Source: Azoarcus sp. Aa7 (GTDB lineage Bacteria; Pseudomonadota; Gammaproteobacteria; Burkholderiales; Rhodocyclaceae). From it: 64,000 nucleotides of DNA. Position 1 is the stretch's first letter. Each line of letters opens with the position of its first letter. Under the pieces are notes generated by a model. It was not told the origin of the DNA. It ran no database searches and was given only the letters and a program-made list of their open reading frames with translations. The stretch spans positions 1 to 64,000 of the forward strand of contig NZ_QVLR01000092.1 in NCBI RefSeq assembly GCF_014822185.1, in the 5' to 3' direction. Both the position numbers and the translations under genes were made by a program. This document shows positions 1 through 21,113 of this stretch, piece after piece.

Positions 1-654
1 CGGTGCAGGGCCTCGACGCCTCGCAGGTGCGGCTGGCCGTCGACATGGCGACGGGCGACCTGCTGATCCGCGCGGCCAGCGGCGAGGAGATGCGCATCGT
101 CGGCCAGAACACCGGGACGGGCATCGAGCAGATCGTATTCGCCGACGGCACGACGTGGGGGCAGCCGGAGATCGCCAACGCCACGCTCGAGTACCGCGGC
201 ACGGACAGCAACGACGTGCTCGTGGGCACGTCGGGCGTCAACTGGATGGACGGCGGCGCCGGTGACGACGAGCTGCACGGCATGGATGGGAGCGACACCT
301 ACGTGATGTCGAGCGGCGGCGGAAACGACCGGGTGGTCGACTACGGTGCGCCGTGGGACGTGGACACGGTGTCGGTGCAGGGCTTCGACGCCTCGCAGGT
401 GCGGCTGATCGGGGACATGGCGACGGGGGACCTGCTGATCCGCGCGACCAGCGGCGAGGAGATGCGCATCGTCGACCAGAACACCGGGATGGGTATCGAG
501 CAGATCGTGTTCGCCGACGGCACGATCTGGGGGAAGCTGGAGATCGCCAACGCCACGCTCGAGTACCGCGGCACCGCCGGCAACGACGTGCTCGTGGGCA
601 CTTCGGACGGCGACTGGATGGACGGTGGTGCCGGTGACGACCAGCTGGTCGGCA
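1..654 (+). repeat. 372-bp in-frame tandem repeat inside the RTX gene
   Basis: The sequence from base 1 recurs at base 373 with few differences, up to about base 654. The offset is exactly 372 bp (124 codons). Both copies encode DASQVRL, MATGDLLIRA, SGEEMRIV, IEQIVFADGT, NATLEYRGT and WMDGGAGDD. The first copy is cut by the window edge, so more copies may lie to the left. Confidence 0.9.
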
Positions 655-1547
655 ATTCCGGCAACGATGTGCTGATTGGCGGCGCGGGAGCCGACGTCCT
701 GCAGGGCGGCGAAGGATCCGATACCTACGAGGTCGATCAGCCCGGCGACGTGGTCATCGAGACCGATGCGAATGCGGTGACCGGCGGAGTCGATACCGTC
801 AATAGCTATCTGTCCGCCTACACCCTCGGGGCAAACGTCGAGAACGGCGCGATCTTGATGTCAGGCAACGCCAACCTGACGGGCAATGCGCTGAACAATG
901 TGATCGAGGCCGGAGCCTTCAACAACGTCATTGACGGGGGCAAGGGCATCGATACCGCGAGCTATGCTGCGGCCGGTGTCGGCGTGAGCGTGAGCCTGAG
1001 TACAACCAAGGCTCAGGTCACGGGCGGCAGCGGTACCGACACGCTGCTGCGGGTGGAGAACCTTGCAGGATCCGCGTTCGGTGACAAGCTGACGGGCAAC
1101 AGCGTATCCAACCTTATCGAGGGCGGCGCGGGTAACGATTACCTGGCCGGTCAGGGAGGAAGTGACTCCCTTTCCGGCGGCACGGGCGACGACGTGCTGA
1201 TCGGTGGCGTGGGGGCGGATCGACTGACGGGCGGTCAGGGGCGCGACGTCTTCGACTTTAATGCACTGACCGAAACCGGTACGACCAGCACGAGTTGGGA
1301 TCTGATCACCGATTTCGAATCCGGGATCGACTGTCTGGACCTGTCGTCGCTGGATGCCAATCAGGCCACATCCGCCAACGACGGGTTCTCCCAGATGCTG
1401 GCAGCCGGCGCGTCCTTTACCCAGGCGGGGCAGCTCATGTATTCCAACGGGGTTCTGTATGGGAACACCGATGGCGATGCGGCGGCCGAATTCGCCATCG
1501 GTCTGTCCGCGGCGCCGGAGCTGACGATGTCCGACATCGTGCTTTAA
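1..1547 (+). CDS. RTX-type calcium-binding secreted protein, C-terminal part (5' end outside window)
   Basis: The frame is open to the left edge, so only about the last 515 residues are visible. They contain several blocks of glycine/aspartate nonapeptides of the RTX form GGxGxDxLx, for example GGAGDD, GNDVLIGGAGAD and a longer run near the C-terminus ending GGQGRDVFDF. These fold as calcium-binding parallel beta-rolls. The last ~100 residues (ITDFESGIDCLDLSSLD onward) resemble the C-terminal module of serralysin-type proteins and probably carry the uncleaved type I secretion signal. The first ~220 residues are two copies of a 124-residue unit. No catalytic domain is visible, so adhesin, S-layer-like protein or enzyme cannot be told apart. 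No type I secretion genes lie to the right. Confidence 0.85.
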   Translation, partial: VQGLDASQVRLAVDMATGDLLIRAASGEEMRIVGQNTGTGIEQIVFADGTTWGQPEIANATLEYRGTDSNDVLVGTSGVNWMDGGAGDDELHGMDGSDTYVMSSGGGNDRVVDYGAPWDVDTVSVQGFDASQVRLIGDMATGDLLIRATSGEEMRIVDQNTGMGIEQIVFADGTIWGKLEIANATLEYRGTAGNDVLVGTSDGDWMDGGAGDDQLVGNSGNDVLIGGAGADVLQGGEGSDTYEVDQPGDVVIETDANAVTGGVDTVNSYLSAYTLGANVENGAILMSGNANLTGNALNNVIEAGAFNNVIDGGKGIDTASYAAAGVGVSVSLSTTKAQVTGGSGTDTLLRVENLAGSAFGDKLTGNSVSNLIEGGAGNDYLAGQGGSDSLSGGTGDDVLIGGVGADRLTGGQGRDVFDFNALTETGTTSTSWDLITDFESGIDCLDLSSLDANQATSANDGFSQMLAAGASFTQAGQLMYSNGVLYGNTDGDAAAEFAIGLSAAPELTMSDIVL

Positions 1548-3826: not shown

Positions 3827-3851
3827 TTCTGACGTCGGTGCAGTGCACAAT

Positions 3852-3902
3852 AGAACATGATTCTGTGATAAAGTTGCGTCACATGCAATAAAGTTCTATT
3901 AT
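3852..3902 (+). promoter_or_regulatory. MFS gene promoter with AGAAY-N3-RTTCT operator pair
   Basis: A sigma-70-like promoter reads TTGCGT (3874-3879), 17-bp spacer, TATTAT (3897-3902). A perfect dyad AGAACATGATTCT lies at 3852-3864, 22 bp before the -35 start. A half-degenerate copy, GCAATAAAGTTCT, lies at 3885-3897 in the spacer and abuts the -10. The spacing matches the other promoters described for this motif. Confidence 0.7.
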
Positions 3903-3958
3903 TCGGCCATTCGCGGCGGATCCCGGTCCGCCTTTCATGATCGAGAGTGGAGATCCCG

Positions 3959-5359
3959 ATGGCCAGCATCACGGAACATGAACCCCACGGAGAACACCAG
4001 ACGAAGAAGGCGACGGCCAGCGGATGGATCGGCTCGGTGCTGGAGTATTACGACTTCTTCATCTATGCGACGGCAGCCTCGCTGATCTTCCCGCAGATCT
4101 TCTTTCCTGCCACGGATCCCAAGGTCGCGATCGTCGCTTCGCTGGCCACCTACGGTGTCGGTTACGTCGCCCGACCGATCGGTGCCTTCTTCCTTGGTCA
4201 TTGGGGTGACACCCACGGCCGCAAGCAGGTGCTGTTGGTGTGCATGTTTCTGATGGGTATTTCGACCGTTGCCGTGGGGCTGCTGCCGACCTACGAGCAG
4301 GTTGGCCTGCTCGCCCCGGCGCTGCTGGTCGTGTTGCGCCTGATCCAGGGTTTCGCGGTCGCTGGCGAGATTTCCGGCGCGAGTTCGATGATCCTCGAGC
4401 ACGCGCCTTTCGGTCGTCGCGGCTACTACGCGAGCTTCACGCTGCAGGGCGTGCAGGCGGGGCAGGTGCTTGCCGCCGCCGTGTTCCTGCCGCTCGCGCA
4501 CTATCTGCCGACGGAGGATTTCAATTCCTGGGGGTGGCGGATTCCCTTCCTGCTGAGCTTCGTCGTGATCGTCGCCGGCTACTACATCCGCAGCGAGGTC
4601 AAGGAAACCCCGGCCTTCGCGGAGGAGAGCGAGCACGGCGAAGTGCCCAAGGCGCCGGTCATCCAGGCGCTCACGCACAGCTGGCGGGACATGCTGCGCG
4701 TGGTGTGCATGGCACTGATGAACGTTATTCCGGTGGTCACGACCGTGTTCGGCGCGGCCTACGCGGTGCAGGCGGGCTACGGAATCGGCTTCGACAAGGA
4801 CGTGTACTTGTGGATCCCGGTCCTCGGCAACTGCCTCGCGGTGATCGTGATCCCCTTCGTCGGCAAGCTCTCCGACCGCGTCGGCCGCCGTCCGCCGATC
4901 ATCTTCGGTGCGCTCGCCTCGGGGCTGCTGTCCTTTGCTTACCTCTACGCGATCAGCATCCATAACGTGCCGCTCGCGATAGCGATGTCCCTGCTGATGT
5001 GGGGCGTGGTTTACCAGGGCTACAACGCGGTGTATCCGAGCTTCTACCCCGAACTGTTCCCGACGCGTACCCGCGTTTCGGCGATGGCGATCTCGCAGAA
5101 CCTCGGCACGCTGGTGACGGCGATGCTGCCGATGGTTTTCGCCGCGGTCGCGCCCCCGGGATCGACCAACATCCCGATGGTGGTCGGCAGCATCACCCTC
5201 GCGGTGACGGTGGTGGCGGCGTTGGCCGCGTGGAGCGCGCGCGAAACCTACCGGGTGCACCTGAACGACCTCGGTCAGCCGGACGCGGTGCCGATGGACA
5301 AGGACGAATACGACCAACTCTCCGCGCAAAGCCTCGCGGTCGCCAGGCAGGCTGCGTAG
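3959..5359 (+). CDS. MFS transporter, metabolite:H+ symporter (MHS) type
   Basis: This 466-residue inner-membrane permease has the MHS-family layout: a charged N-terminus, then SVLEYYDFFIYA in TM1, the cytoplasmic loop GHWGDTHGRKQ (major facilitator signature), a matching GKLSDRVGRRP in the second half, and about 12 hydrophobic segments. MHS members carry organic acids or betaines such as shikimate, 2-oxoglutarate, proline or citrate with protons. The substrate cannot be read from sequence. ATG 3959 is chosen over the in-frame GTG at 3947 because GGAG at 3949-3952 is well spaced from it. The promoter carries the shared AGAAY-N3-RTTCT sites, linking it to the TRAP, DMT, porin and aldehyde dehydrogenase genes. 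A strong terminator follows. Confidence 0.88.
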   Translation: MASITEHEPHGEHQTKKATASGWIGSVLEYYDFFIYATAASLIFPQIFFPATDPKVAIVASLATYGVGYVARPIGAFFLGHWGDTHGRKQVLLVCMFLMGISTVAVGLLPTYEQVGLLAPALLVVLRLIQGFAVAGEISGASSMILEHAPFGRRGYYASFTLQGVQAGQVLAAAVFLPLAHYLPTEDFNSWGWRIPFLLSFVVIVAGYYIRSEVKETPAFAEESEHGEVPKAPVIQALTHSWRDMLRVVCMALMNVIPVVTTVFGAAYAVQAGYGIGFDKDVYLWIPVLGNCLAVIVIPFVGKLSDRVGRRPPIIFGALASGLLSFAYLYAISIHNVPLAIAMSLLMWGVVYQGYNAVYPSFYPELFPTRTRVSAMAISQNLGTLVTAMLPMVFAAVAPPGSTNIPMVVGSITLAVTVVAALAAWSARETYRVHLNDLGQPDAVPMDKDEYDQLSAQSLAVARQAA

Positions 5360-5375
5360 GGGGGTGTCCGATTCG

Positions 5376-5403
5376 GGGGAGGCCTTTGCGGTCTCCCCTT
5401 TTT
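5376..5403 (+). terminator. Rho-independent terminator after the MFS gene
   Basis: A 9-bp stem (5376-5384 with 5390-5398, one G-T pair) closes a 5-base loop and is followed by five T residues (5399-5403). It lies between the convergent MFS and ketopantoate-reductase-like genes. Confidence 0.85.
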
Positions 5404-5442
5404 CGTCTACGCGGGGCAGAGTGTGCAGCGCCGGACGCAGCC

Positions 5443-6354
5443 TCAGAGCGGCGTCGTGCCCTCCGCGGCGCGTTCTTCGAACAGCTTCACCAGGCTGTAC
5501 AGCACGCGGTTGACCGGCGTCGCGACGCCCAGCGTTTTGCCGCGGCGCAGTACAAAGCCGTTCAGGTGTTCGATTTCGCTGCGCTTGCCGCGTGCGAGAT
5601 CCTGCGCCGTGGAGGAGAACTGCGTCGGCATCGTCTGCGCGATCCGCTGCACCGCGGCCCAGCAGTCGCCCGGCACCGTGATGCCCTCCGCCCACGCCAG
5701 ATCGAGGCATTCCTGCACCGCGTCGCGCATGACGTCCTCGACGGCATCCCCGGCGACGAGTCGGCCATAGGGCAGCTGCGTGATTGCCGACAGGGCGTTG
5801 TACGCGCAGTTGAGGATCAGCTTGGCCCACAGCGCGCCGACGACGTTGTCGGAAATTTCGACGGGCACGCCGGCGGCGGCGAAGAGTTCGACGAGGCGGC
5901 CGGATGCGTCCGACGGGCCGATCACGAGTTCGCCCCGGCCGTGGTGCTTCACGTGGCCCGGGCCTGCCATCTCGGTCGCGACATAGACCACCGCGGCGCC
6001 GACCTCGCGGCCCAGCAGCGCCTGCAGCCGTTCGGCGTTGTCGACGCCGTTCTGCAGGCTTAGCACGATCGCCTCGGAGGCCAGGTGCGGCGCCATCGCG
6101 GCGGCGGCATCCGCGGTGTCGGTCGATTTCACGCAGCACAGCACGAGCTGCGCACCGCGCACGCCCTCCGCGCCGGTGCTGGCCCGCACCGGCACGCGTT
6201 CCTTGAAGTCGTGCGTGTCGAGGAGGAGTCCGTCGCGCGTCACGACGTCCATGTGCACCGGGCGACCGACCAGGACAACCTCGTGACCGGCGCGCGCGAG
6301 CATGCCGCCGTAGTAGCAGCCGACCGCGCCGGCTCCCATCACTGCAATCCTCAT
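5443..6354 (-). CDS. panE: 2-dehydropantoate 2-reductase family protein
   Basis: The 303-residue protein starts with the dinucleotide-binding loop MRIAVMGAGAVGCYYGG, typical of ApbA/PanE ketopantoate reductases that reduce 2-dehydropantoate with NADPH for pantothenate and CoA synthesis. The probable catalytic lysine and substrate-binding stretch is ALWAKLILNCAYN, in the C-terminal helical domain. The start at 6354 is chosen because GGAGAG lies 8 bases upstream; ATG 6360 would be too close to it. The gene sits alone among transport genes, so it could instead be a paralogue acting on another 2-oxo acid. It is divergent from the DMT gene, and one AGAAY-N3-RTTCT dyad (6617-6629) lies between them. 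Confidence 0.85.
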   Translation of the reverse strand: MRIAVMGAGAVGCYYGGMLARAGHEVVLVGRPVHMDVVTRDGLLLDTHDFKERVPVRASTGAEGVRGAQLVLCCVKSTDTADAAAAMAPHLASEAIVLSLQNGVDNAERLQALLGREVGAAVVYVATEMAGPGHVKHHGRGELVIGPSDASGRLVELFAAAGVPVEISDNVVGALWAKLILNCAYNALSAITQLPYGRLVAGDAVEDVMRDAVQECLDLAWAEGITVPGDCWAAVQRIAQTMPTQFSSTAQDLARGKRSEIEHLNGFVLRRGKTLGVATPVNRVLYSLVKLFEERAAEGTTPL

Positions 6355-6605
6355 GAGCATCTCTCCGTTGTGTCGGGGCGGTCGCGGAACGCGCGCCCAT
6401 GAGACGGCGATCCGCGGCAAGGTGGACATGTTAGCCCCATGCCGTGCGACCGGCACGAACCGGCTGTTCGTGGCGGGGACGGCGAACCGGGTCCGCGGTG
6501 AGAGCAGCATCGGCACGTACGGCGGATGCGGGGATGGGGCTGGATGGGGCAGTCGGGAGCGAATCCCTGCACGGGCGCCCGGCAGTTGTTATGCGCCGAA
6601 TGGTG

Positions 6606-6634
6606 TTGCGTTAAATAGAATCGTGTTCTAAAGT
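6606..6634 (+). promoter_or_regulatory. DMT gene promoter with AGAAY-N3-RTTCT operator
   Basis: TTGCGT (6606-6611), a 17-bp spacer and TAAAGT (6629-6634). The dyad AGAATCGTGTTCT (6617-6629) fills the spacer and shares its last base with the -10. The gene-free stretch 6355-6677 holds this promoter; I see nothing else in it except the ribosome site of the leader frame. Confidence 0.7.
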
Positions 6635-6677
6635 GGAGTCGGTCACAAAACTTGAATTCCAAGAACAAGGAGACGCC

Positions 6678-6794
6678 ATGACCGACCGCTATGCCGTGAT
6701 CGGCCGACCTGAGCGGCACGGGTATGCGGCCGGATGTGCGCCCCGCCATCGACATTTTCCGCAGCGCCTGACACGGTCGGGGACGCACGCGTGA
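6678..6794 (+). pseudogene. 38-codon leader frame resembling the N-terminus of shikimate dehydrogenase
   Basis: ATG 6678 has a strong ribosome site (AAGGAGA, 6667-6673). The frame starts MTDRYAVIGRPERHG and ends at TGA 6792-6794. The first nine residues equal the typical start of bacterial AroE proteins (MTDRYAVIG followed by NP), and then the similarity stops. The stop codon overlaps the GTG start of the DMT gene (GTGA, 6791-6794). It may be a gene remnant or a coupled leader peptide. The AroE comparison is from memory. Confidence 0.45.
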
Positions 6795-7672
6795 CCGATA
6801 CGCATGTTTACCGCACGCGCGTGCTGGGCCCCTTGCTGATGTGTCTGGCCTGCCTGTGTTTTGCAGCGCTCGACACGCTGATCAAGTATCTGTCGCACCG
6901 GCTGCCGCTTACCGAAGTGATCTGGGTGCGCTATGCGGTGCAGACGATCGCCATCGCAATCCTCTTCGTGCCCAAGATGAAGGGGCGCATCCTGCGCACC
7001 GCCAATCCCCGGCTGCAGGCGCTTCGCGGCATGTGCCTGCTCGGCGCGAGCCTGTTCGTGATCAACGGGCTGTCGCGCCTGCCACTCACCGAGACGACGG
7101 CCGTCCTTTTTCTTGCGCCGTTGATCATCACACTGCTTTCGGGGCCGGTGCTGGGCGAGCACATCAAGCGGGTGGACTGGCTCGCGGTGACGCTCGGCTT
7201 CGTGGGCGTGCTGATCATCGTGCGTCCGGGCGGAGGGCTGCTGACCTGGGCGATCCTGTTTCCGGTCGGCACCGCCTGCTGCAACGCCGTGTACCAGATG
7301 GTGACGCGTTCCTTCCATAGTGCGGAGCATCCGGTGACGACCAACCTCTACACCGGATTGGTCGGCGTGCTCGTTCTCGCCCCGCTGATGCCTTTCGTGT
7401 GGCAATGGCCTACCGTGGAGCAGTGGGGCGTGCTTGTGCTCGCCGGGCTCGTCGGCGGGCTCGCGCATTACATCATCACCAAGGCGCTGGAATGCTCCAG
7501 CGCGGCGGCGCTCGGGCCGTACGGCTATACGCAGCTGGTGTGGGCGGCCCTGCTCGGATTCACGGTGTTCGGGGCTTTGCCGGACGCGGTCACCTGGCTC
7601 GGCATCGCGGTGATCGCGAGCAGCGGGCTGCTGCTGTCGATCTATCACTTGGTGACAGCCCGGCGAAGCTGA
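6791..7672 (+). CDS. DMT-family (EamA) inner-membrane transporter
   Basis: The 293-residue protein has about ten hydrophobic segments in two repeated EamA halves, the usual drug/metabolite transporter fold. The first half holds FAALDTLIKYLSHRLPLTEV, the second ends AVIASSGLLLSIYHL. Family members export or import amino acids, nucleosides or other small metabolites; the substrate is unknown. GTG 6791 is chosen because GGGGA (6779-6783) is spaced 7 bases from it and because it overlaps the stop of the upstream 38-codon frame. An in-frame GTG at 6734 is possible but less likely. Its promoter carries the shared dyad. Confidence 0.85.
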   Translation: MTDTHVYRTRVLGPLLMCLACLCFAALDTLIKYLSHRLPLTEVIWVRYAVQTIAIAILFVPKMKGRILRTANPRLQALRGMCLLGASLFVINGLSRLPLTETTAVLFLAPLIITLLSGPVLGEHIKRVDWLAVTLGFVGVLIIVRPGGGLLTWAILFPVGTACCNAVYQMVTRSFHSAEHPVTTNLYTGLVGVLVLAPLMPFVWQWPTVEQWGVLVLAGLVGGLAHYIITKALECSSAAALGPYGYTQLVWAALLGFTVFGALPDAVTWLGIAVIASSGLLLSIYHLVTARRS

Positions 7673-7711
7673 AAATTCAAGGAGTTTCTCCTCGCGCAGC
7701 GAATGCGCTTA

Positions 7712-7737
7712 GAACCCGCTCAAGCGGGTTCCTTTTT
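7712..7737 (+). terminator. Rho-independent terminator after the DMT gene
   Basis: GAACCCGCT (7712-7720) pairs perfectly with AGCGGGTTC (7723-7731) around a two-base loop. A T run (7733-7737) follows. It separates the DMT gene from the TRAP promoter. Confidence 0.85.
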
Positions 7738-7756
7738 ATAAGGGGACTTAATTTTG

Positions 7757-7807
7757 AGAACATGATTCTGAATATTAGTTGCGTACAACAGAATTACGTT
7801 CTATAGT
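7757..7807 (+). promoter_or_regulatory. TRAP operon promoter with two AGAAY-N3-RTTCT operators
   Basis: The promoter is TTGCGT (7779-7784), 17-bp spacer, TATAGT (7802-7807). Dyad 1, AGAACATGATTCT (7757-7769), lies 22 bp before the -35 start. Dyad 2, AGAATTACGTTCT (7790-7802), lies in the spacer and touches the -10. The two dyads are 33 bp apart, about three helical turns. This is the clearest member of the set. Confidence 0.78.
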
Positions 7808-7950
7808 TGCTGAAAGTCAGCCTACGCGATTTACGCGCGTCTCAAGAACAAGGCAGCAAGTCCGAACGGCCCCGAAGAGGCCGAAGGCATCCCGACGGAA
7901 GGCGCGACGTTGGATGACAGTTTGCACACGATGTCCTGGAGGAGAAGTCG

Positions 7951-8553
7951 ATGAGTTCACCAGAAAGTCCCGTATCCGTCGTCACGAAAATCGTGGACGG
8001 GTACTTCCGGTTCCTGAAGTTCGTGATTGCGCTGTGTCTGGCAATCATGGTCGTGCTGGTGTTCGGGAACGTGTTCCTGCGCTATGCGTTCAACAGCGGC
8101 ATCTCGGTCTCCGAGGAAGTGTCCCGCTGGTTCTTCGTGTGGATGACCTTCCTCGGCGCCCTGGTTGCGATGCGCGAGCATGGGCACCTCGGTGTCGATG
8201 CCTTCGTGATGCGCCTCTCGCCCCTGGGCAAGCGCGTGTGCCTGGTCATAGGCCAGGTGCTGATCGCGTACGTCTGCTGGCTGCTGCTGATGGGGAGCTG
8301 GGACCAGACGGTCATCAACCTCGACGTGAAGGCGCCGACTTCCGGCTGGTCCATGGGCTGGTTCTACGGCATCGGGGTCGTGTTCGCGGTCACCGGCGGG
8401 CTGATCACCCTGCACAACCTCTATCGTGCGTTGTTCTGCAAGCTGGCCGAGCACGAGCTCGTGCAGGTCAAGGAATCCGAGGAAATCCACGGCGAACACG
8501 CCGACACGCATGGCGAACCCGCGCTGCGTGCGGTGGCGGGCGGCAAGCACTGA
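7951..8553 (+). CDS. dctQ: TRAP transporter small permease (DctQ type)
   Basis: The 200-residue protein has four membrane segments, including FVIALCLAIMVVLVFGNVFLRY, and the conserved SEEVSRWFFVWMTFLGA of DctQ subunits. It pairs with the large permease to form the sodium-coupled TRAP translocator in the inner membrane. The C-terminal tail after ~residue 165 is hydrophilic and rich in His/Glu. The start is fixed by GGAGGAG at 7938-7944. It is the first gene of a dctQ-dctM-dctP operon, 16 bp before dctM, behind the double-operator promoter. Confidence 0.92.
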   Translation: MSSPESPVSVVTKIVDGYFRFLKFVIALCLAIMVVLVFGNVFLRYAFNSGISVSEEVSRWFFVWMTFLGALVAMREHGHLGVDAFVMRLSPLGKRVCLVIGQVLIAYVCWLLLMGSWDQTVINLDVKAPTSGWSMGWFYGIGVVFAVTGGLITLHNLYRALFCKLAEHELVQVKESEEIHGEHADTHGEPALRAVAGGKH

Positions 8554-8569
8554 GACAGGGAGCCCCATC

Positions 8570-9850
8570 ATGACCATTACGATCTTCCTCGGATCCCTGC
8601 TCGGCGCGATGGCGCTGGGCGTCCCCATCGCATTCTCGTTGCTGATCTGCGGTGTGGCACTGATGTACCACCTCGACATGTTCGATGCGCAGATCATCGC
8701 GCAGAACGTGATCAACGGCGCCGACAGCTTCCCGCTGATGGCCGTGCCCTTCTTCCTGCTCGCCGGCGAAATCATGAACGCGGGCGGTCTGTCGAAGCGC
8801 ATTGTCAATATTGCGCTCGCGATGGTCGGCCACGTGCATGGCGGCCTCGGCTACGTGGCGATCCTTGCGTCCTGCCTCCTGGCTTCGCTGTCGGGCTCGG
8901 CGGTTGCGGATTCGGCCGCGCTGGCTGCGCTGCTCGTGCCGATGATGACCGCGGCCGGGCACAACAAGGAGCGCTCCTGCGGCCTGATCGCAGCGGGCGG
9001 CATCATCGCCCCGATCATCCCGCCCAGCATCGGCTTCGTGATCTTCGGCGTCGCGAGCGGCCTGTCGATCTCCAAGCTATTCCTCGCCGGCATCTTCCCC
9101 GGCCTGATGATGGGTATCGGCCTCGCCATCGCCTGGTGGATCGTCGCTCGCAGCGACGACGTCAAGCCGCTTCCGCGCAAGTCGTCGAAGGAGATCGTCG
9201 CCACGATGATCGACGGCGCGTGGGCGATGATGCTGCCGGTGATCATCATCGTCGGCCTGAAGTTCGGTGTGTTCACGCCGACCGAGGCGGCGGTCGTGGC
9301 TGCGGTGTATTCGCTGATCATCGCGGTGTTCGTCTATAAGGAACTCAAGCCGAAGGACGTCTACGCGGTGTTCGTGCAGGCCGCGACGACCACGGCGGTG
9401 GTGATGTTCCTGGTTGCCGCCGCGATGGTGTCGGCATGGCTGATCACGGTTGCGGACCTGCCGGGCGAGCTCATCGCGCTCCTCGAGCCCTTCATGGACA
9501 ACCCGACGCTGCTGCTGATCGTGATCATGCTGGTCGTGGTTGCCGTCGGTACCGCGATGGACATGACGCCGACCATCCTGATCCTGACGCCGGTGCTGAT
9601 GCCGGTGGTCAAGCAGGCCGGCATCGACCCGATCTACTTCGGCGTGTTGTTCATCATGAACAACGCGATCGGCCTGATCACGCCGCCGGTGGGAACGGTG
9701 CTCAACGTCGTTGCCGGCGTCGGCAAGATAAGCATCAGCGACCTCATGCGCGGCGTGTGGCCGTTCCTGATGGCCCAGCTTGCCGTCCTCTTCGCGCTGG
9801 TGGCGTTCCCGGTGCTCGTCACCGGCCCGGCCAAGTGGTTCGCAAGCTGA
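8570..9850 (+). CDS. dctM: TRAP transporter large permease (DctM type)
   Basis: The 426-residue protein has about 12 hydrophobic segments and typical DctM motifs: GVPIAFSLLICG near the N-terminus, ASLSGSAVADSAALAALLVP, and IIPPSIGFVIFG. It forms the substrate path of a TRAP transporter driven by a sodium gradient. The start at 8570 has a short purine ribosome site (AGGGAG). It follows dctQ directly and is followed by dctP after 98 bp. TRAP systems take organic acids (C4-dicarboxylates, 2-oxo acids, aromatic or alicyclic acids); which one is not visible. Confidence 0.93.
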   Translation: MTITIFLGSLLGAMALGVPIAFSLLICGVALMYHLDMFDAQIIAQNVINGADSFPLMAVPFFLLAGEIMNAGGLSKRIVNIALAMVGHVHGGLGYVAILASCLLASLSGSAVADSAALAALLVPMMTAAGHNKERSCGLIAAGGIIAPIIPPSIGFVIFGVASGLSISKLFLAGIFPGLMMGIGLAIAWWIVARSDDVKPLPRKSSKEIVATMIDGAWAMMLPVIIIVGLKFGVFTPTEAAVVAAVYSLIIAVFVYKELKPKDVYAVFVQAATTTAVVMFLVAAAMVSAWLITVADLPGELIALLEPFMDNPTLLLIVIMLVVVAVGTAMDMTPTILILTPVLMPVVKQAGIDPIYFGVLFIMNNAIGLITPPVGTVLNVVAGVGKISISDLMRGVWPFLMAQLAVLFALVAFPVLVTGPAKWFAS

Positions 9851-9948
9851 TGAACACGGGTCCGGCAGGCGCCGGACTCCCCGATGAGCGCAGCTTCCGC
9901 GCTTTGAAACAGGAAGTCTTTCTTTCGCACGCAGGACCAGGAGACAAA

Positions 9949-10968
9949 ATGAAAACTCAGATCAAGAAACTGGTGGCAGGTGTCCTCGGCTCGGTCGCCA
10001 TGCTGTCGACGGGTGTCATGTTCTCGGCGGATGCCGCGGCGCGTGACCTGAAGCTGGCGATGCAGACCAATCCGGGCACGGCGCAGTACGACGGTGTCGA
10101 GAAGTTCGCGGCGCTGGTGAAGGAAAAGAGCGGCGGCAGCCTGACGGTCAAGATCTTCGGCGGCGGCGCGCTGGGCGGCGACCTGCAGGTCGTTTCCTCG
10201 CTGCAGGGCGGCACGGTGGAGCTGTCGCAGATGAACGCGAGCCTGCTGAACGGCCTCGCGAAGGAGTTCTCGGTTCTCGACTTCCCCTTCCTGTTCGATA
10301 ACGAGAAGGAAGCGCACGCCATCATGGACGGCCCCATCGGCAAGAAGCTGATGGACAAGCTGCCGGAGAAGGGCATCGTCGGCCTGGCCTACCCGGAACT
10401 GGGCTTCCGCCACATCTCCAACAACAAGCGCCCGGTCAAGAAGGTCGAGGACCTGACCGGCCTGAAGATCCGCGTGATCCAGACCCCGGTGTACGTCGAC
10501 ATGATGAACGCGCTGGGCGCGAACGCGACGCCGCTGCCGTTCCCTGAAGTCTACAACGCGCTCGAGCAGAAGGCCGTCGACGGTGCGACCAACCCGCTCG
10601 TGACCATTCCGGTGATGAAGTTCGACGAGGTGCAGAAATACCTGACGCTGACCCGTCACCAGTACAACCCGCAGATCATCATCATGAGCAAGAAGGCCTG
10701 GGACAAGCTGACCCCGGCCGAGCAGAAGATCATCCAGGAATCGGCCAACGAGGCGCGCGATTTCGAACGCCAGGTCTCTGCGAAGAAGAACGCCGAGGCG
10801 CTCGAGTACCTGAAGAAGAAGCTTGAGGTCACCGAGCTGTCGGCCGAGGAAATGGCCAAGATGCGCGAGAAGGTCAAGCCGGTGATCGAGAAGTACACGA
10901 AGGAGCTGGGCGAGCCCTTCGTCAAGGAAGTGTACGCCGAAGTCGCGAAGGTGCGCGGCGCCAAGTAA
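9949..10968 (+). CDS. dctP: TRAP transporter periplasmic substrate-binding protein (DctP type)
   Basis: The 339-residue protein starts with a signal peptide (MKTQIKKLVAGVLGSVAM, cleavage probably after SADAAA). The mature part has the DctP fold with the conserved carboxylate-binding arginine region GLKIRVIQTPVYVDMMNALG. It delivers substrate to DctQM. ATG 9949 is preceded by AGGAG at 9939-9943. It is the last gene of the TRAP operon. A long stem-loop without a T run follows (10992-11039), which may protect the 3' end of this transcript, since binding proteins are usually needed in excess. Confidence 0.92.
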   Translation: MKTQIKKLVAGVLGSVAMLSTGVMFSADAAARDLKLAMQTNPGTAQYDGVEKFAALVKEKSGGSLTVKIFGGGALGGDLQVVSSLQGGTVELSQMNASLLNGLAKEFSVLDFPFLFDNEKEAHAIMDGPIGKKLMDKLPEKGIVGLAYPELGFRHISNNKRPVKKVEDLTGLKIRVIQTPVYVDMMNALGANATPLPFPEVYNALEQKAVDGATNPLVTIPVMKFDEVQKYLTLTRHQYNPQIIIMSKKAWDKLTPAEQKIIQESANEARDFERQVSAKKNAEALEYLKKKLEVTELSAEEMAKMREKVKPVIEKYTKELGEPFVKEVYAEVAKVRGAK

Positions 10969-10991
10969 GCCTCGTCGCGTTCGCGCAGCAA

Positions 10992-11039
10992 GCCGGCTGG
11001 TACGGCCACATCGACGGCGATGTGCTCGTACCAGCCGGC
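10992..11039 (+). other. Long intercistronic stem-loop between dctP and the Bug gene
   Basis: GCCGGCTGGTACG (10992-11004) pairs perfectly with 11027-11039. Inside, CACATCG (11007-11013) pairs with CGATGTG (11018-11024) around a four-base loop. No T run follows, so it is more like an mRNA-stabilising or processing structure than a terminator. Confidence 0.7.
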
Positions 11040-11082
11040 GCGATCACCCTTAATGAAGCTGATATCGAGCGAGGAGTGTGCG

Positions 11083-12039
11083 ATGGTGCCATTCGTGATG
11101 CGTCTTGTTGCGGTGCTTGCCGCCGTCTTGCCGGCCGTGGCGACCGCGGCTCCGCCGGAGCCCAGGTTCACTCTCGTCGTGCCGTTCGTCGCCGGCGGCC
11201 CCACCGACAAACTGGCGCAGCCCTTCGTCGCAGCCTTCGGGCGAGCGCTGGGCGAGCGCGTGTCGGTGAAGAACATCGGCGGCGGGGGCGGTTCGGTCGG
11301 CACGCGCGAGGTGCAACGTGCCCGTCCTGACGGCAAGGTGTTGCTGCTCGCCAACATCGGTCACGCCGCGGCTCCCGCACTCAACGCCAAGCTGCCCTAT
11401 GATCCGCAGAAGGATTTCGAACCCGTGGGGCTGATCGCCGACGTGCCGATGACGCTCATCGCGCGCGGCGACCTGCGCGCCCACGATGTCGCTGAACTGC
11501 GCACGCAGATGGAGAAGGGGCGGCGCAAGCTGACCATCGGCCATGCCGGGGCAGGTTCGGCGTCCCATCTCTGCAGCGTGCTGTTCGCGCGCGCCGCGGG
11601 CAAGGATCTGCCGACGCTGACACATCCCGGCACCGCGAGCGCGATGAATGCGATGCTGAGCGACGGGCACATCGACCTCATGTGCGACCAGACGACGCAC
11701 ACCCTCGCACGCATCAGGAGCGGCGAAGTGCAGGCCTTCGGCGTCACGGCGCCCGAACGGCTGGCGGCACTGCCCGACCTGCCGACGCTCGCGGAGGCGG
11801 GCCTGCCCGGCGTGGAACTCGTCGTGTGGCACGGCCTGTATGCGCCCAGGGGCACACCGCCCGAGGTCATCGAGCGTCTCGCGGCAGCCTTGCGGCAGGC
11901 CCTGCAGGACCCGGCACTGATCGAGGCGCTGAAGGACCTCGGCGCGATCCCCGCCAAAGCGGACGACGCGACGCCGAAGGCCCTGCGTGCGCGCCTTGCT
12001 GCGGACGTGGAACGCTGGAGCAAAGCCCTGAAGCAGTGA
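11083..12039 (+). CDS. Bug/TctC-family periplasmic solute-binding protein
   Basis: The 318-residue protein has a signal peptide (MVPFVMRLVAVLAAVLPAVA, cut near ATAA) and the Bug fold: FTLVVPFVAGGPTDKLAQPF near the start, then the family patterns LLLANIGHAAAPALNAKLPYD and TLAEAGLPGVELVVW. These proteins serve tripartite tricarboxylate transporters, but no tctA or tctB is present here. It is therefore an orphan binding protein, as is common in betaproteobacteria. Start 11083 has GAGGAG at 11071-11076; an in-frame ATG at 11053 lacks one. It sits between the TRAP genes and the quinate/shikimate-dehydrogenase-like gene, suggesting a related organic acid ligand. Confidence 0.85.
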   Translation: MVPFVMRLVAVLAAVLPAVATAAPPEPRFTLVVPFVAGGPTDKLAQPFVAAFGRALGERVSVKNIGGGGGSVGTREVQRARPDGKVLLLANIGHAAAPALNAKLPYDPQKDFEPVGLIADVPMTLIARGDLRAHDVAELRTQMEKGRRKLTIGHAGAGSASHLCSVLFARAAGKDLPTLTHPGTASAMNAMLSDGHIDLMCDQTTHTLARIRSGEVQAFGVTAPERLAALPDLPTLAEAGLPGVELVVWHGLYAPRGTPPEVIERLAAALRQALQDPALIEALKDLGAIPAKADDATPKALRARLAADVERWSKALKQ

Positions 12040-12158
12040 CAGGCAGGGCGGCTTGCCGGGGGCAGTGGTCCGTCCGCCAATCGAACATCAATTCAATAGC
12101 AGCAGCGGTGATGCGACCGACCGGTCCGCAGGGAATGCCGCGAAAGGAGCAAGCGACA

Positions 12159-13022
12159 ATGAGTGCAAACGCGAAGCAGCAATCCTTCCTCTGTGGCCTG
12201 ATCGGTTCGGGCATCCAGGCCTCGCGTACGCCGCCCATGCATGAGCGCGAAGGCGACGAACAGGGCGTGCGCTACATGTACAAGAAGATCGACACCGAGG
12301 TTCTCGGCCTCACCGCCGATGACCTGCCCGAACTCCTGACTGCCGCCGAGCGCATGGGCTTCTGCGGCCTGAACATCACCTTCCCGTTCAAACAGGCGGT
12401 GATTCCGCTGCTCGACGAACTTTCCGACGACGCCCGGGCCCTGAATGCGGTGAATACGGTGGTCCTGCGCGAGGGGCGGCGCATCGGCTACAACACCGAC
12501 TGCAGCGGCTTCGGCGAGAGCTTCCGGCGCGGCCTTCCCGATGCCAGGCGCGACGTCGTTGTGCAGCTCGGTGCGGGCGGTGCGGGCGCCGCGGTGGCGC
12601 ATGCAGCCCTGCAGCAGGGCGTCGGCAAGCTGTATGTGCGCGATTCGGACCCCGTGCGCGCCGAGACGCTTGCCGCCAGCCTGTGCGAAGCATTCGGCGT
12701 CGGCCGTGCGGCCGCGTGCACCGACCTTGCCGCAGCCATGGACGAGGCGGACGGCCTCATCCACGCGACGCCGACCGGCATGGCGAAGTTCCCCGGCATG
12801 CCGCTGCCCGCGGAACTGCTGCAGTCGCGCCACTGGGTGGCCGAGATCGTGTATTTCCCGCTCGAGACCGAACTGCTGCGCGTAGCTGCGGCGAAGGGCT
12901 GCCGCACGCTCAACGGCGGCGGCATGGCGGTGTTCCAGGCGGTCGATGCGTTCCGCCACTTCACCGGGCTGGAACCCGACGCCGAGCGCATGCTGCGGCA
13001 TTTCGCGTCGATGGGCGCCTGA
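12159..13022 (+). CDS. Shikimate/quinate dehydrogenase family protein
   Basis: The 287-residue protein has the AroE/YdiB two-domain layout. Substrate-binding elements are GSGIQASRTPPMHE (SRTP where AroE has SKSP) and NITFPFKQ with the catalytic Lys (near residue 75); NAVNT and NTDCSGF follow. The NAD(P) loop is QLGAGGAGAAVAHA. SRTP with MHE fits the quinate/shikimate dehydrogenase or paralogue branch used in catabolism more than the biosynthetic AroE. It would interconvert quinate or shikimate with the 3-dehydro acid, or act on a similar hydroxy-cyclohexane acid. ATG 12159 has AAAGGAG at 12143-12149. It follows the Bug gene and precedes a universal stress protein. Confidence 0.85.
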   Translation: MSANAKQQSFLCGLIGSGIQASRTPPMHEREGDEQGVRYMYKKIDTEVLGLTADDLPELLTAAERMGFCGLNITFPFKQAVIPLLDELSDDARALNAVNTVVLREGRRIGYNTDCSGFGESFRRGLPDARRDVVVQLGAGGAGAAVAHAALQQGVGKLYVRDSDPVRAETLAASLCEAFGVGRAAACTDLAAAMDEADGLIHATPTGMAKFPGMPLPAELLQSRHWVAEIVYFPLETELLRVAAAKGCRTLNGGGMAVFQAVDAFRHFTGLEPDAERMLRHFASMGA

Positions 13023-13064
13023 ACAATCGATCGGACACTGACTGGATCAATCGAGGTAATCACC

Positions 13065-13487
13065 ATGTACAAGAACATCCTGCTGCCTACCGACGGATCG
13101 GAGCTGTCGCGGATGGCGATCCGGCACGGCATCGCACTCGCCAAGGCCGTGGGGGCGAAAGTCACGGGGCTTTCAGTGGTCGTTTCGTCGCATGCGCCCG
13201 CCGGCGCGGGCCTCGCAATTGCCGGCGATAACGTTCAGGAAGATGCAGCAGCGGAGTTCCTCGCGGTGATTTCGCACGAGGCGCACGAGCAGGGCGTCGA
13301 GGCCGAATGTTTCTATGTGAGCGGTGCATCGCCGCACGAGGAGATCATCGCGGCGGCGCAGCAGCGTGGCTGCGACCTGATCTGCATGGCCTCGCATGCC
13401 CGCACGGGCCTGTCGGGCCTGCTGCTGGGCAGCGAAACGACATCGCTGATCAACGGCTGCCGTATTCCTGTACTGGTGCTGCGCTAG
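13065..13487 (+). CDS. Universal stress protein (UspA family)
   Basis: The 140-residue single-domain protein starts YKNILLPTDGSELSRMA and ends with the nucleotide-binding signature MASHARTGLSGLLLGS followed by IPVLVLR. This is the ATP-binding UspA type, a cytoplasmic stress-linked regulator of unknown direct target. It lies 42 bp after the dehydrogenase gene on the same strand and probably ends that transcript. Such proteins are often placed in anaerobic aromatic and alicyclic gene clusters. Confidence 0.9.
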   Translation: MYKNILLPTDGSELSRMAIRHGIALAKAVGAKVTGLSVVVSSHAPAGAGLAIAGDNVQEDAAAEFLAVISHEAHEQGVEAECFYVSGASPHEEIIAAAQQRGCDLICMASHARTGLSGLLLGSETTSLINGCRIPVLVLR

Positions 13488-13514
13488 GAGCCAAGTTGTA
13501 AAGTTGCAACAGGC

Positions 13515-13565
13515 GAATCACGGTTCTAAAAATAAGTTGTTGTAGGTAGAAATGTGTTTTATTGT
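13515..13565 (+). promoter_or_regulatory. Porin promoter with degenerate AGAAY-N3-RTTCT pair
   Basis: TTGTTG (13537-13542), a 17-bp spacer and TATTGT (13560-13565). The spacer dyad is AGAAATGTGTTTT (13548-13560). Thirty-three bp upstream, 13515-13527 keeps a perfect right half (GTTCT) with a poor left half. The layout equals that of the MFS and TRAP promoters. The transcript would carry a leader of about 270 bases before the porin ATG; the leader 13566-13843 holds a small CAGGTG/CACCTG hairpin and no gene that I can support. Confidence 0.62.
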
Positions 13566-13843
13566 AAGCCTGTCGATCGGCCATGAGCCGGACGGGACCA
13601 CATAAGTACGCAAGGCCAGAGGAGGAACGGGGAGGGTGACGACCACGACGAGAACCTAGCGCGAACTGACGCCAGATCAGGACCGACTTTGCGGCGCCGG
13701 ACTTCTGCCCCGAAGATGAGCCGCCAGGTACAAAGAGAAGGCACAGCAAGCCGACTGCCACCGGGAGTCGCAGGTGTTGCACCTGGCGCGGCGCGGGCAA
13801 CCGGCTTGCAGGAATGAAAAACCAAACCAAAGGAAGGACCACG

Positions 13844-14959
13844 ATGAAGAAGCAAGTCACTATCGCCGTGCTCGCAGCACTCGGCGCCGGCGCCGCCCAG
13901 GTCGCATCGGCGCAGGAAACCAACGTCACGATCTACGGCCGCGCACACGTCTCGTTCGAGCAGATCCGCAAGTCGGGTCAGGAAACGACCCAGTTCCTGA
14001 AGAACAACACCTCGCGCATCGGTTTCCGCGGCGAAGAAGCGCTCGGCAACGGCCTGAAGGCGTTCTTCCAGATCGAATCGGGCGTCGCGCTCGACGACGG
14101 CTCCACCGGTGGTTCGAACAAGCTCGCCGGCCGCGAGAGCTTCGTAGGCCTGAAGAGCGACTTCGGCACCGTCAAGGCGGGCAACTTCTACCATCCGTAC
14201 GACGACCTGCATTCGATCTCGGGTAACTACTTCCAGCTGTTCACCGGCACTTCGAACGACGCGACCCTGTGGGCCAACGGCTCCAGCGCCGCGACCGGCG
14301 GTTTCGACGAGCGCCTGCCGAACGCGGTCGGCTACGAGTCGCCGAAGTTCGGCGGCCTGAGCGCCAAGCTGTGGTACTCCTTCGGCCCGTCGGACAACGG
14401 CGGCGAGGAGCAGCTGGGCGACGACGGTTCGCGCATGTTCTCGGCCAACGTGGTGTACGAGAACGGTCCGCTCAAGGCGGCGTGGGGTCACCTGCAGCAG
14501 CGCCGCATGGAAGCGCAGTCGAAGAACTTCTACGACGACGGTTACTCGAACTTCATCACCGCCGGTTACCAGGCAGGCCCGTTCTACCTCGCCGGCCTGA
14601 TCGAGCGCGACGTGCTGAAGAACATCAACCAGTCCGGCGACGAGCGTACCCGCAACTACTGGCATCTGCTCGCGAAGTACACGACCGGCGCGCACACCGT
14701 CGGCGCCTTCTACGGCAAGGCCAACGACTGGAAGGGCGACGCCGGCATCGACGACAGCGGTGCGCGCATGTACACCGTGGGCTACAACTACGCCTTGTCG
14801 AAGCGCACCCAGGTCTACGCGCTGTATACCAACCTCAAGAACCAGGACGCAGCTGCATATCAGCTCGGCGGCAGCCCGGCGCGCGCAGCCGGCCAGGACT
14901 GGACCATTGCTCCGGAGAAGCAGAGCGCCGTCGTGACGGGTATCGTTCATAACTTCTGA
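13844..14959 (+). CDS. Gram-negative trimeric porin
   Basis: The 371-residue protein has a signal peptide (MKKQVTIAVLAALGAGAA, cut after ASA) and a mature start ETNVTIYGRAHVSFEQ, the first beta-strand of betaproteobacterial general porins (Porin_4/OmpC-like). Alternating strands follow, with the internal motif NNTSRIGFRGEEALGNGLKA, and the chain ends with a terminal Phe (IVHNF) as needed for outer-membrane assembly by the BAM machinery. It gives passive uptake of small hydrophilic solutes. ATG 13844 is chosen over ATG 13814 because it has AGGAAGG upstream and begins a proper signal peptide. Its promoter carries the shared operator pattern, so it likely feeds the transporters of this block. 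Confidence 0.93.
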   Translation: MKKQVTIAVLAALGAGAAQVASAQETNVTIYGRAHVSFEQIRKSGQETTQFLKNNTSRIGFRGEEALGNGLKAFFQIESGVALDDGSTGGSNKLAGRESFVGLKSDFGTVKAGNFYHPYDDLHSISGNYFQLFTGTSNDATLWANGSSAATGGFDERLPNAVGYESPKFGGLSAKLWYSFGPSDNGGEEQLGDDGSRMFSANVVYENGPLKAAWGHLQQRRMEAQSKNFYDDGYSNFITAGYQAGPFYLAGLIERDVLKNINQSGDERTRNYWHLLAKYTTGAHTVGAFYGKANDWKGDAGIDDSGARMYTVGYNYALSKRTQVYALYTNLKNQDAAAYQLGGSPARAAGQDWTIAPEKQSAVVTGIVHNF

Positions 14960-15010
14960 TCGGGCGATTCTGGCCGGGGATGGCGGCGTGTCGTCCCCTG
15001 TCGGCAAAGG

Positions 15011-15044
15011 AACGGCAAGGCGCGGGTCTTGCCGTTTTTTTTTT
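15011..15044 (+). terminator. Rho-independent terminator after the porin gene
   Basis: AACGGCAAG (15011-15019) pairs perfectly with CTTGCCGTT (15028-15036). The T run reaches 15044. Confidence 0.92.
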
Positions 15045-15092
15045 CGCCTGCGCGAAGCGAGTCCGGGGGGCTCGATACTGATCGGATAAAAC

Positions 15093-15161
15093 AGAATTTT
15101 GTTCTAAAAATGTTCTTGAATTCCCCGAGTCTTTGGTTAAAATAGAACCATGTTTTGTTTA
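15093..15161 (+). promoter_or_regulatory. Aldehyde dehydrogenase promoter with AGAAY-N3-RTTCT sites
   Basis: TTGGTT (15133-15138), a 17-bp spacer and a weak TGTTTA (15156-15161). The spacer dyad AGAACCATGTTTT (15144-15156) has one mismatch. A perfect upstream dyad, AGAATTTTGTTCT, lies at 15093-15105, here 51 bp away instead of 33. A lone GTTCT half-site is at 15112-15116. Confidence 0.62.
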
Positions 15162-15247: not shown

Positions 15248-16738
15248 ATGTCGAATCTCGATTCCCTCCCCAAATACGGCCAGTACATCAACGGTGCCGA
15301 GGTGCCGCCCGCGTCCGGTGAGTACTTCCCGACCGAGAATCCCTATAGCGGCGAAGCCTGGGCGCTGATTGGCCGGGGCGGCAAGGTGGATGCCGACGCC
15401 GCGGTCGCCGCCGCGCACGCCGCCTTCGAGCAGGGCGAATGGCCCTCGCTGACTGCCAGCCAGCGCGGCAAGCTGATGCGCAAGCTGGCCGACCTGATCG
15501 TCGCCAACGCCGAGCATCTGGCCGAGATCGAGCGCCGCGACAACGGCAAGCTCGCCGCCGAGGTCGTCGCGCAGGTCAAGTACATGGGCGACTACTTCCA
15601 CTACTACGCGGGTCTCGCCGACAAGATCGAGAGCCACGTGATCCCGACCGACAAGAAGGGCGTGTTCTGCTACACGAAGTACGAGGCCAAGGGCGTCGTC
15701 GTCATCATCACGCCGTGGAACTCGCCGCTCACGCTCACCAGCTGGAAGCTCGCGCCGGCACTCGCTGCCGGTTGCACGGTCGTCATCAAGCCGTCCGAAT
15801 TCACTTCGGCCTCCGCAATCGAGTTCGCGAAGTTGTTCGCCCAGGCCGGCTTCCCGCCGGGGGTCGTCAACGTTGTCACCGGCTTCGGTCATGAAGTCGG
15901 CGCGCCGCTCGTCGAGCATCCGGACACAGCCCACATCGGCTTCACCGGCGGCGAGATCGCCGGCCAGAAGATCTACGAAGCGGCCGCGCGCGGACTCAAG
16001 ACCGTGACGCTGGAACTCGGCGGCAAGTCGCCCAACATCGTCTTCGACGACGCGGATCTTGACCAGGCCGTGAAGGGCATCGTGTCGGGCGTGTTCGCCG
16101 CCTCGGGGCAGACCTGCCAAGCCGGTTCGCGCCTGCTGGTGCAGGAAAGCATCCACGACGAAGTCGTGCGCCGCCTGGTCGAGTTCGTCAGCACCGCGAA
16201 GATCGGCGACCCGTCGCAGCTCGACACGCAGGTCGGCCCGATCGCGACCCGTCCGCAGTTCGACAAGATCATGAGCTACATCCAGATCGCCAAGGACGAA
16301 GGCGCGAAGTGCGTGCTGGGCGGCAAGTCGCGCCCCGATCTCGGCGCGGGCCAATTCGTCGAGCCGACGATCTTCACCGGCGTGAATAACAAGATGCGCA
16401 TCGCGCAGGAAGAGGTGTTCGGCCCGGTGCTGTGCGTGATCCCGTTCAAGGACGAGGAAGACGCCGTGCGCATCGGCAACGACGTGTTGTACGGCCTCGC
16501 CGGCGCCGTGTGGACCAAGAGCCTGCACCGCGCGATGTACGTCACGGACAAGCTCAAGGCCGGCACCGTGTGGGTGAATAACTATCGCGCGACCAGCTAC
16601 ACCTCGCCCTTCGGCGGCTACAAGCGCTCGGGCATCGGCCGTGAGTCCGGTGCGGATGCGATCAAGGAATACCTCGAGACCAAGTGCGTATGGATCTCGA
16701 CCGATCTCGACGTGCCGAATCCGTTCATCCGTCGCTGA
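15248..16738 (+). CDS. NAD(P)-dependent aldehyde dehydrogenase
   Basis: The 496-residue protein is a standard ALDH: the cofactor and oxyanion motif TPWNSPLTLTSWKLAPALAA, the general-base Glu in TLELGGKSPN, and the catalytic Cys290 in ASGQTCQAGSR. The C-terminus has the usual PFGGYKRSGIGRE. It oxidises an aldehyde to the acid; overall it resembles betaine-aldehyde or aryl-aldehyde type enzymes, but the substrate is not clear. ATG 15248 has GGAG at 15237-15240; an in-frame earlier start at 15155 is inside the promoter region and is rejected. It is monocistronic, with its own operator-bearing promoter and a terminator after it. Confidence 0.92.
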   Translation: MSNLDSLPKYGQYINGAEVPPASGEYFPTENPYSGEAWALIGRGGKVDADAAVAAAHAAFEQGEWPSLTASQRGKLMRKLADLIVANAEHLAEIERRDNGKLAAEVVAQVKYMGDYFHYYAGLADKIESHVIPTDKKGVFCYTKYEAKGVVVIITPWNSPLTLTSWKLAPALAAGCTVVIKPSEFTSASAIEFAKLFAQAGFPPGVVNVVTGFGHEVGAPLVEHPDTAHIGFTGGEIAGQKIYEAAARGLKTVTLELGGKSPNIVFDDADLDQAVKGIVSGVFAASGQTCQAGSRLLVQESIHDEVVRRLVEFVSTAKIGDPSQLDTQVGPIATRPQFDKIMSYIQIAKDEGAKCVLGGKSRPDLGAGQFVEPTIFTGVNNKMRIAQEEVFGPVLCVIPFKDEEDAVRIGNDVLYGLAGAVWTKSLHRAMYVTDKLKAGTVWVNNYRATSYTSPFGGYKRSGIGRESGADAIKEYLETKCVWISTDLDVPNPFIRR

Positions 16739-20743: not shown

Positions 20744-20942
20744 CGTTATCTCTCCTCTCGTGGCGGGGGCGTGGCCCGCACAACCCTGAATGTCGTCTTG
20801 CGAGACGGCAGCGCTTCGGTCGCAGCGACGACGGCGACGCGTCGGCGTGGAAATGCGGTTCGGCAATGCCTGTTGCGCCCGGTTTACCTGGGCACGTCTC
20901 GCTCGTTGATGTTGGCCCCCGGCCTTCGCCGATGGCGACGCA

Positions 20943-20978: not shown

Positions 20979-21113
20979 TCGCAACGGCGGGTATGCTTGG
21001 CTGGCTGTGCTGGCTTGTGGTTCGCTGTAACAATCTGTGCGGAAAGGGCGACGGGCCTTTTTGGTGTTGGTTGGTGATGAACCCCGTTTTGGCCGGTTTA
21101 AAAAATTAAATAG

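Follow-up and report, generated by a model that had tools for sequence, protein, structure and literature searches.

A cluster of transport and dehydrogenase genes in Azoarcus sp. Aa7 shares a promoter element, the inverted repeat AGAAYNNNRTTCT, within a 64,000-nucleotide stretch of DNA (contig NZ_QVLR01000092.1, positions 1 to 64,000; hereafter the window). We propose that AGAAYNNNRTTCT is the operator of an IclR-family regulator, here called IclR1, which would control its own gene together with scattered promoters for the uptake and breakdown of hydroaromatic plant acids of the shikimate/quinate kind; we give this reading a probability of about 0.78. The motif, its promoter layout, its conservation, its co-occurrence with IclR1 and its linkage to iclR1 are directly observed in the DNA. 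The initial annotation of the window had postulated that these genes form a local regulon governed by a single factor whose gene lies elsewhere, a view that the kept operators support well, and the candidate gene, iclR1, does lie outside the window.

The genome under study (G000) was analyzed within a comparison set of 41 genomes, including 17 of the genus Aromatoleum and 24 other relatives. IclR1 is present in five of the 17 (G000, G001, G013, G014 and G016) and absent from the other 12. The window stands on contig C92 of G000, and iclR1 and a second IclR-family gene, iclR2, stand on a separate contig, C79. Chance estimates were obtained by dinucleotide shuffling, a procedure that takes no account of the shared ancestry of promoters.

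Five exact copies of AGAAYNNNRTTCT occur in the window (starting at 3852, 6617, 7757, 7790 and 15093) compared with 0.05 expected, a number reached in none of 100 window shuffles. The five upstream regions of interest (1,241 bases) contain five copies, compared with a mean of 0.0024 and a maximum of 1 in 5,000 dinucleotide shuffles. With the operator slightly relaxed and a TTG required 11 bases ahead of it, four matches were observed (at the DMT, TRAP, porin and aldehyde dehydrogenase sites, not at the MFS site) compared with a shuffled mean of 0.0006 and a maximum of 1, for a pattern that was drawn up post hoc. The relevant features are as follows.

3852-3864, plus strand: upstream operator of the MFS promoter, AGAACATGATTCT; exact in G001 and G016, lost in G014
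3874-3902, plus strand: MFS promoter, TTGCGT-17-TATTAT, with the degenerate operator GCAATAAAGTTCT at 3885-3897
3959-5359, plus strand: MFS permease; best NCBIfam matches are the metabolite/H+ symporter and shikimate transporter models, both below cut-off
6606-6634, plus strand: DMT promoter, TTGCGT-17-TAAAGT, with the operator AGAATCGTGTTCT at 6617-6629
6678-6704, plus strand: stub of a lost aroE gene, MTDRYAVIG; A. diolicum has an intact aroE behind a like promoter
6734-7672, plus strand: DMT (EamA) permease
7757-7769, plus strand: upstream operator of the TRAP promoter, AGAACATGATTCT; one to two mismatches in G014 and G013
7779-7807, plus strand: TRAP promoter, TTGCGT-17-TATAGT, with the operator AGAATTACGTTCT at 7790-7802
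7951-13487, plus strand: dctQ, dctM, dctP, a TctC-type binding protein gene, an AroE-like dehydrogenase gene (12156-13022) and a Usp gene, presumably a single operon
13515-13527, plus strand: degenerate upstream operator of the porin promoter; better preserved in G016
13537-13565, plus strand: porin promoter, TTGTTG-17-TATTGT, with the operator AGAAATGTGTTTT at 13548-13560
13814-14959, plus strand: porin (Porin_4)
15093-15105, plus strand: upstream operator at the aldehyde dehydrogenase gene, AGAATTTTGTTCT
15144-15156, plus strand: aldehyde dehydrogenase operator, AGAACCATGTTTT, after a TAAAAT -10 box
15248-16738, plus strand: aldehyde dehydrogenase

The five dyads that the initial annotation had placed at 3885, 6617, 7790, 13548 and 15144 were all found at these coordinates, with no mismatch to AGAAYNNNRTTCT at 6617 and 7790, one at 15144 and two each at 3885 and 13548. 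It had also assigned all five the same layout, in which the operator starts 11 bases from the TTG of the -35 box, its final T is the first base of the -10 box and the spacer is 17 bp. This layout holds for the MFS, DMT, TRAP and porin promoters but fails on the coding strand of the aldehyde dehydrogenase gene, where the proposed -10 box, TGTTTA, matches only two of the six bases of TATAAT. A better promoter, TTGAAT-16-TAAAAT, lies just upstream, and the operator directly follows its -10 box, an arrangement that A. diolicum and G014 by eye share. Read on the minus strand, the operator at 15144-15156 does stand in the standard layout (TTGCAC-17-TATTTT), perhaps as a relic of a promoter that once faced iclR1. 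Several promoters have paired operators, 33 bp apart in the MFS pair (3852 and 3885) and the TRAP pair (7757 and 7790) and 51 bp apart at the aldehyde dehydrogenase gene (15093 and 15144). The porin operator has a degenerate partner at 33 bp, the CoA-transferase promoter on C79 has one at 32 bp, and the DMT operator has none. The picture of a regulon of five promoters proved too narrow: the regulon extends beyond them, and operators are paired at several.

Across the whole of G000, 11 exact palindromes were found (22 rows, counting both strands) compared with one for the reversed control. Five are in the window and one, at C79:107734, stands in a promoter of the same design, so that six of the 11 stand at regulon promoters; the other five (L001-L004 and L006) lie inside open frames of at least 150 amino acids and have no promoter layout. 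By eye, the L002 palindrome is also just 5′ of an apparent pyruvate kinase start. The bare palindrome averages 10.4 copies per genome in the five Aromatoleum genomes with IclR1 and 5.9 in the 12 without it, and because of this background it is by itself a poor marker. The composite promoter pattern, TTG-N9-GAAYNNNRTTYTA in its strict version, with the reversed pattern as control, behaves otherwise. It gives 21 matches in the five IclR1 genomes (4, 4, 5, 4 and 4 in G000, G001, G013, G014 and G016, respectively), and all 21 stand upstream of TRAP, DMT, aroE, aroQ, CoA-transferase, iclR1 or iclR2 genes. None was found in any of the 12 congeners without IclR1. As to the concern, raised in the initial annotation, that the motif might be equally common in coding DNA, the bare palindrome does occur in frames at background level (5 of 11), whereas the composite is missing from all 12 of these congeners. 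Among the 24 other relatives, six composite matches occur in four genomes; the reversed control gives eight, and therefore we regard the matches outside the genus as chance-level. One composite match in another genus, at G024:C1:75727, resembles the motif.

Orthologous promoters were expected to keep the site, and they do so in the four other Aromatoleum genomes, with some mismatches, as well as near homologous genes in Thauera and Castellaniella. When G000, G013 and G014 are aligned, all 13 columns of the TRAP operator agree, compared with 74 of 220 outside the 30-column promoter block, and so do all 13 of the CoA-transferase operator, compared with 52 of 137 outside its promoter block. Between G000, G001 and G014, the MFS operator is identical in 12 of 13 columns compared with 47 of 125 outside the block; no MFS orthologue above 60% identity was found in the stretches of G013 examined. 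Upstream of the MFS gene, GTGCAGTGCACAATA (window 3838-3852) is also kept in G000, G001 and G014 and may be the site of another factor. Exact palindromes without the promoter layout occur in G013:C52 and G014:C1, apparently at the same place in both, and the layout is likewise absent from the site in G013:C102. In G013:C52, the exact palindrome AGAACGCAATTCT, which is outside the regulon, overlaps the end of a glycine riboswitch (L069 5033-5119).

The gene iclR1 (G000:C79:104621-105331, minus strand) encodes a protein with both domains of its family, HTH_IclR (PF09339, 52.9 bits against a cut-off of 22) and IclR_C (PF01614, 79 bits against a cut-off of 24). IclR1 was found at 89% identity or more in five of the 41 genomes, and the same five contain DctP at 92% identity or more; nine of the 41 pass the DctP threshold, the other four at no more than 53%. 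The suggestion that the regulator gene might bear the same site in its own promoter is borne out by iclR1, which has predicted sites upstream in all five Aromatoleum genomes, exact in G013 and G014 and with one mismatch in G000, G001 and G016. In G000 this site is TTGCAACGGAT-AGAACGATGTTCC-ATTATT, at about -185; a second site near -32 has one to two mismatches in G013, G014 and G016 and is looser in G000 and G001. Sites with no more than one mismatch also precede iclR1 in Thauera and at both Castellaniella loci, and the iclR1 and aldehyde dehydrogenase genes of A. diolicum and Thauera phenylacetica are divergent, with an exact site between them. Judged by synteny with A. tolulyticum, C79 and C92 seem to be adjacent, and iclR1 is therefore probably about 30 kb from the MFS site and the transport genes of the window; the corresponding distance in A. 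tolulyticum is 31.7 kb.

In two Castellaniella genomes, iclR1, the VOC and TIM genes, the aldehyde dehydrogenase gene and an AroE-like gene share one locus, joined in C. defragrans, which has one IclR1, by dctQMP. The sites there have one mismatch before iclR1 and none before the AroE-like gene; further composite sites on the iclR1 contigs stand between TIM2 and aroE and before the CoA-transferase, citrate-synthase-like and thiamine diphosphate (ThDP) enzyme genes, and in strain S9 also before an acyl-CoA dehydrogenase gene. With a looser composite pattern, the matches on the iclR1 contig were two of four in C. defragrans, three of three in S9, two of three in Thauera and none of two in Zoogloea, and the reversed control gave 0, 0, 0 and 1, respectively. 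A contig whose record title is that of a Thiobacillus metagenome-assembled genome (L052) was excluded as an independent genus; its matches are the same as those of the Thauera phenylacetica locus L047, and it is perhaps misassigned.

Several targets of the motif point to shikimate or quinate use. They include genes for AroE, AroD, AroQ and dehydroshikimate-dehydratase-like proteins. The AroE-like protein of the window scores 460.6 bits with NF009201 (cut-off 235) and the AroD of C79 scores 210.4 bits (cut-off 139.3), and in A. diolicum the AroE and AroQ encoded behind the motif are both above their family cut-offs. The gene row near iclR1 on C79 encodes VOC, TIM, CoA-transferase, citrate-synthase-like, ThDP, AroE-like and AroD proteins, of which the VOC and TIM proteins resemble two halves of QuiC; these halves are separate and in reversed order, VOC before the TIM barrel (L012 7719-9517). 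The nearest chains of DctP in the PDB are TRAP binding proteins. The DMT promoter was probably inherited from the lost aroE gene, of which the window retains only the first codons. In A. diolicum, the DMT gene has no operator immediately 5′, because an intact aroE intervenes between the gene and its promoter. In Castellaniella, aroE is divergent to TIM2, with the operator between them.

The operon of CoA-transferase, citrate-synthase-like and ThDP enzyme genes (L012 9806-13701) accompanies the regulon as a conserved unit in Aromatoleum, Thauera and Castellaniella. Cyclohexane-1,2-dione hydrolase (2PGN) was considered for the ThDP enzyme and rejected, as the match reaches only 169.2 bits, with acetolactate synthases and others ranked above it; comparison of the A. 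diolicum copy gave no PDB sequence below an E-value of 1e-100. Elsewhere in the genome, proteins with calcium-binding repeats, which from their appearance we take to be RTX-like, are encoded at window 1-1547 and at L042 6591-8849, near the end of C79.

Overall, we provide a putative mechanism for the regulon. In the window, IclR1 would act on the porin, MFS, DMT, TRAP, AroE-like and aldehyde dehydrogenase genes and, near its own gene, on the row of CoA-transferase, citrate-synthase-like, ThDP enzyme, AroE and AroD genes and on the dehydroshikimate-dehydratase-like genes. A dimer bound to the spacer operator would exclude RNA polymerase and thereby repress transcription, and at some promoters cooperativity would come from another dimer bound about three turns of the helix further upstream. 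IclR1 would then be released by a hydroaromatic acid or by a compound derived from it.

Such an arrangement has parallels. IclR group 2 has the motif TGRAACAN1-2TGTTYCA (Suvorova and Gelfand 2021, PMC8222616), and its members, including AllR and E. coli IclR (TGGAAATNATTTCCA), by eye have the same RAAC-N3-GTTY core with a three-base spacer. As described in the same source, group 2 also has sites at the regulator's own gene, tandem sites and joint control of transport and catabolism, and a set of quinate/shikimate and 4-hydroxyphenylpyruvate genes is named among IclR regulons (PMC8222616). Tandem sites in the family lie mainly two turns apart; spacings of three and four turns are enriched to a lesser degree, and members are also described as forming tetramers (PMC8222616). 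In contrast, the outer bases are A/T in the present motif (AGAA..TTCT) and G/C in group 2 (GGAA..TTCC), and Table 1 of that survey contains no factor with this exact site (PMC8222616). From its sites, the regulon would therefore seem to resemble a further case of the known group 2-like kind.

The best NCBIfam match of IclR1 is TIGR02431 (PcaR/PcaU/PobR), at 104.1 bits, far below the cut-off of 284.75. PcaU, PcaR and PobR are regulators of aromatic acid catabolism linked to quinate genes, and their substrates are related to those proposed for IclR1. Their operators are of the GTNCG-N5-6-CGNAC type (PMC8222616), and the present motif, by eye, is of another arrangement. Among the papers listed by a few searches of an open-access library, which lacks most subscription papers, none describes such a regulon in its title or the opening of its abstract.

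Some observations weigh against our proposal. The binding of IclR1 to the operator and its control of these genes are deduced from sequence. Zoogloea ramigera encodes a 65% homologue of IclR1, yet neither of its two composite matches is on the contig of the homologue, no site with one mismatch or fewer was found at either of two Zoogloea loci, and the gene is preceded only by the looser AAAACNNNGTTTT. The strict composite in G000 catches only the DMT, TRAP, CoA-transferase and iclR2 promoters and misses those of the MFS, porin and aldehyde dehydrogenase genes. The split QuiC-like parts are far below the QuiC cut-off, the C79 AroE-like protein is below its cut-offs, and the position of an operator in the spacer is no proof of repression. 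Finally, the second IclR gene, iclR2, is itself a target and occurs in the same five of 41 genomes.

IclR2 (G000:C79:117801-118628) is the main rival, either as the principal reader of the motif or as a protein that shares it with IclR1. In the iclR2 promoter, the composite site TTGACAAAACATGAACGCAATTCTA is followed 18 bp on by another palindrome, the gene adjoins TIM2 and an acyl-CoA dehydrogenase gene, and a 73% copy stands on the iclR1 contig of Thauera phenylacetica; that copy is listed with one in-frame TGA (L087 / L110 1753-2571). However, the motif is retained near homologous genes in C. defragrans, a genome with no IclR2 orthologue (best match 29%), and this speaks for IclR1; Castellaniella S9 is less decisive because a 47% IclR2 relative is present. 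Moreover, by eye, the most distinct palindrome that G013 and G014 have at iclR2 is a somewhat different site, TTGAACCAAGTTCAA, and the G013 iclR2 promoter lacks the composite pattern. It is iclR1, not iclR2, that stands beside the VOC and TIM genes in Aromatoleum and beside the aldehyde dehydrogenase gene in A. diolicum and Thauera. We regard a leading or shared role of IclR2 as quite unlikely. A MarR-type regulator is a far weaker candidate. The BadR-like gene (22324-22794) is the nearest regulator among those identified in the partly annotated window, where aliA, aliB and this gene, of a cyclohexanecarboxylate type, occupy 19115-22794; another MarR gene adjoins iclR1. BadR of Aromatoleum sp. 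CIB (bad-ali), from the same genus, controls alicyclic acid catabolism, but it belongs to the MarR family, unlike IclR1, and its published operator, CAAN4TTG, differs from the present motif (PMC9795900). Operators of that type, CAATAGATTG (20969) and CAATGTATTG (21114), stand between aliA and aliB, and the MarR gene at the iclR1 locus was seen in only three of five Aromatoleum genomes. Both were rejected as regulators, and control of the block by either is very improbable. Equally remote is the notion that the shared sequence has no factor of its own and reflects just a kind of promoter, or chance: the bare palindrome does have a background of about six per genome, whereas the composite promoters track IclR1 across the 17 genomes of the genus and extra copies stand outside the -35 and -10 boxes at fixed distances.

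A reading compatible with our proposal is that IclR1 binds the operator but acts as an activator, or as activator and repressor in one. In its favour, weak -35 boxes (TTGCGT/TTGCAC) are conserved, and the upstream operators would centre near -51, a usual position for an activator. Since the IclR family holds activators and dual regulators (PMC8222616), repression is unproven. In contrast, the operator fills the spacer between the -35 and -10 boxes at most promoters and ends on the first base of the -10 box; the -10 boxes are good, as is the 17-bp spacing. Repression by an operator-bound factor is plausible, and we consider activation, alone or along with repression, rather unlikely.

Returning to IclR1 as the reader of AGAAYNNNRTTCT, the motif, which previously had no regulator, now forms with a named candidate factor a factor-site pair that is open to testing. 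The regulon predicts that a porin, TRAP, MFS and DMT transporters and a set of enzymes serve one substrate class. We speculate, with considerable doubt, that IclR1 marks an undescribed hydroaromatic route in Aromatoleum, Thauera and Castellaniella, in which a ThDP enzyme would open the ring and CoA-linked cleavage would follow, with no aromatisation to protocatechuate. Such a route is suggested because the same operator occurs, beyond the genes for shikimate/quinate dehydrogenase, dehydroquinase and transporters, at the CoA-transferase, citrate-synthase-like and ThDP enzyme operon, at the aldehyde dehydrogenase gene and at the S9 acyl-CoA dehydrogenase gene. Betaproteobacteria of the Aromatoleum, Thauera and Castellaniella type are denitrifiers. 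The operator may serve as a guide, linking an uncharacterised CoA-transferase, citrate-synthase-like and ThDP enzyme operon to shikimate-type metabolism in three genera.

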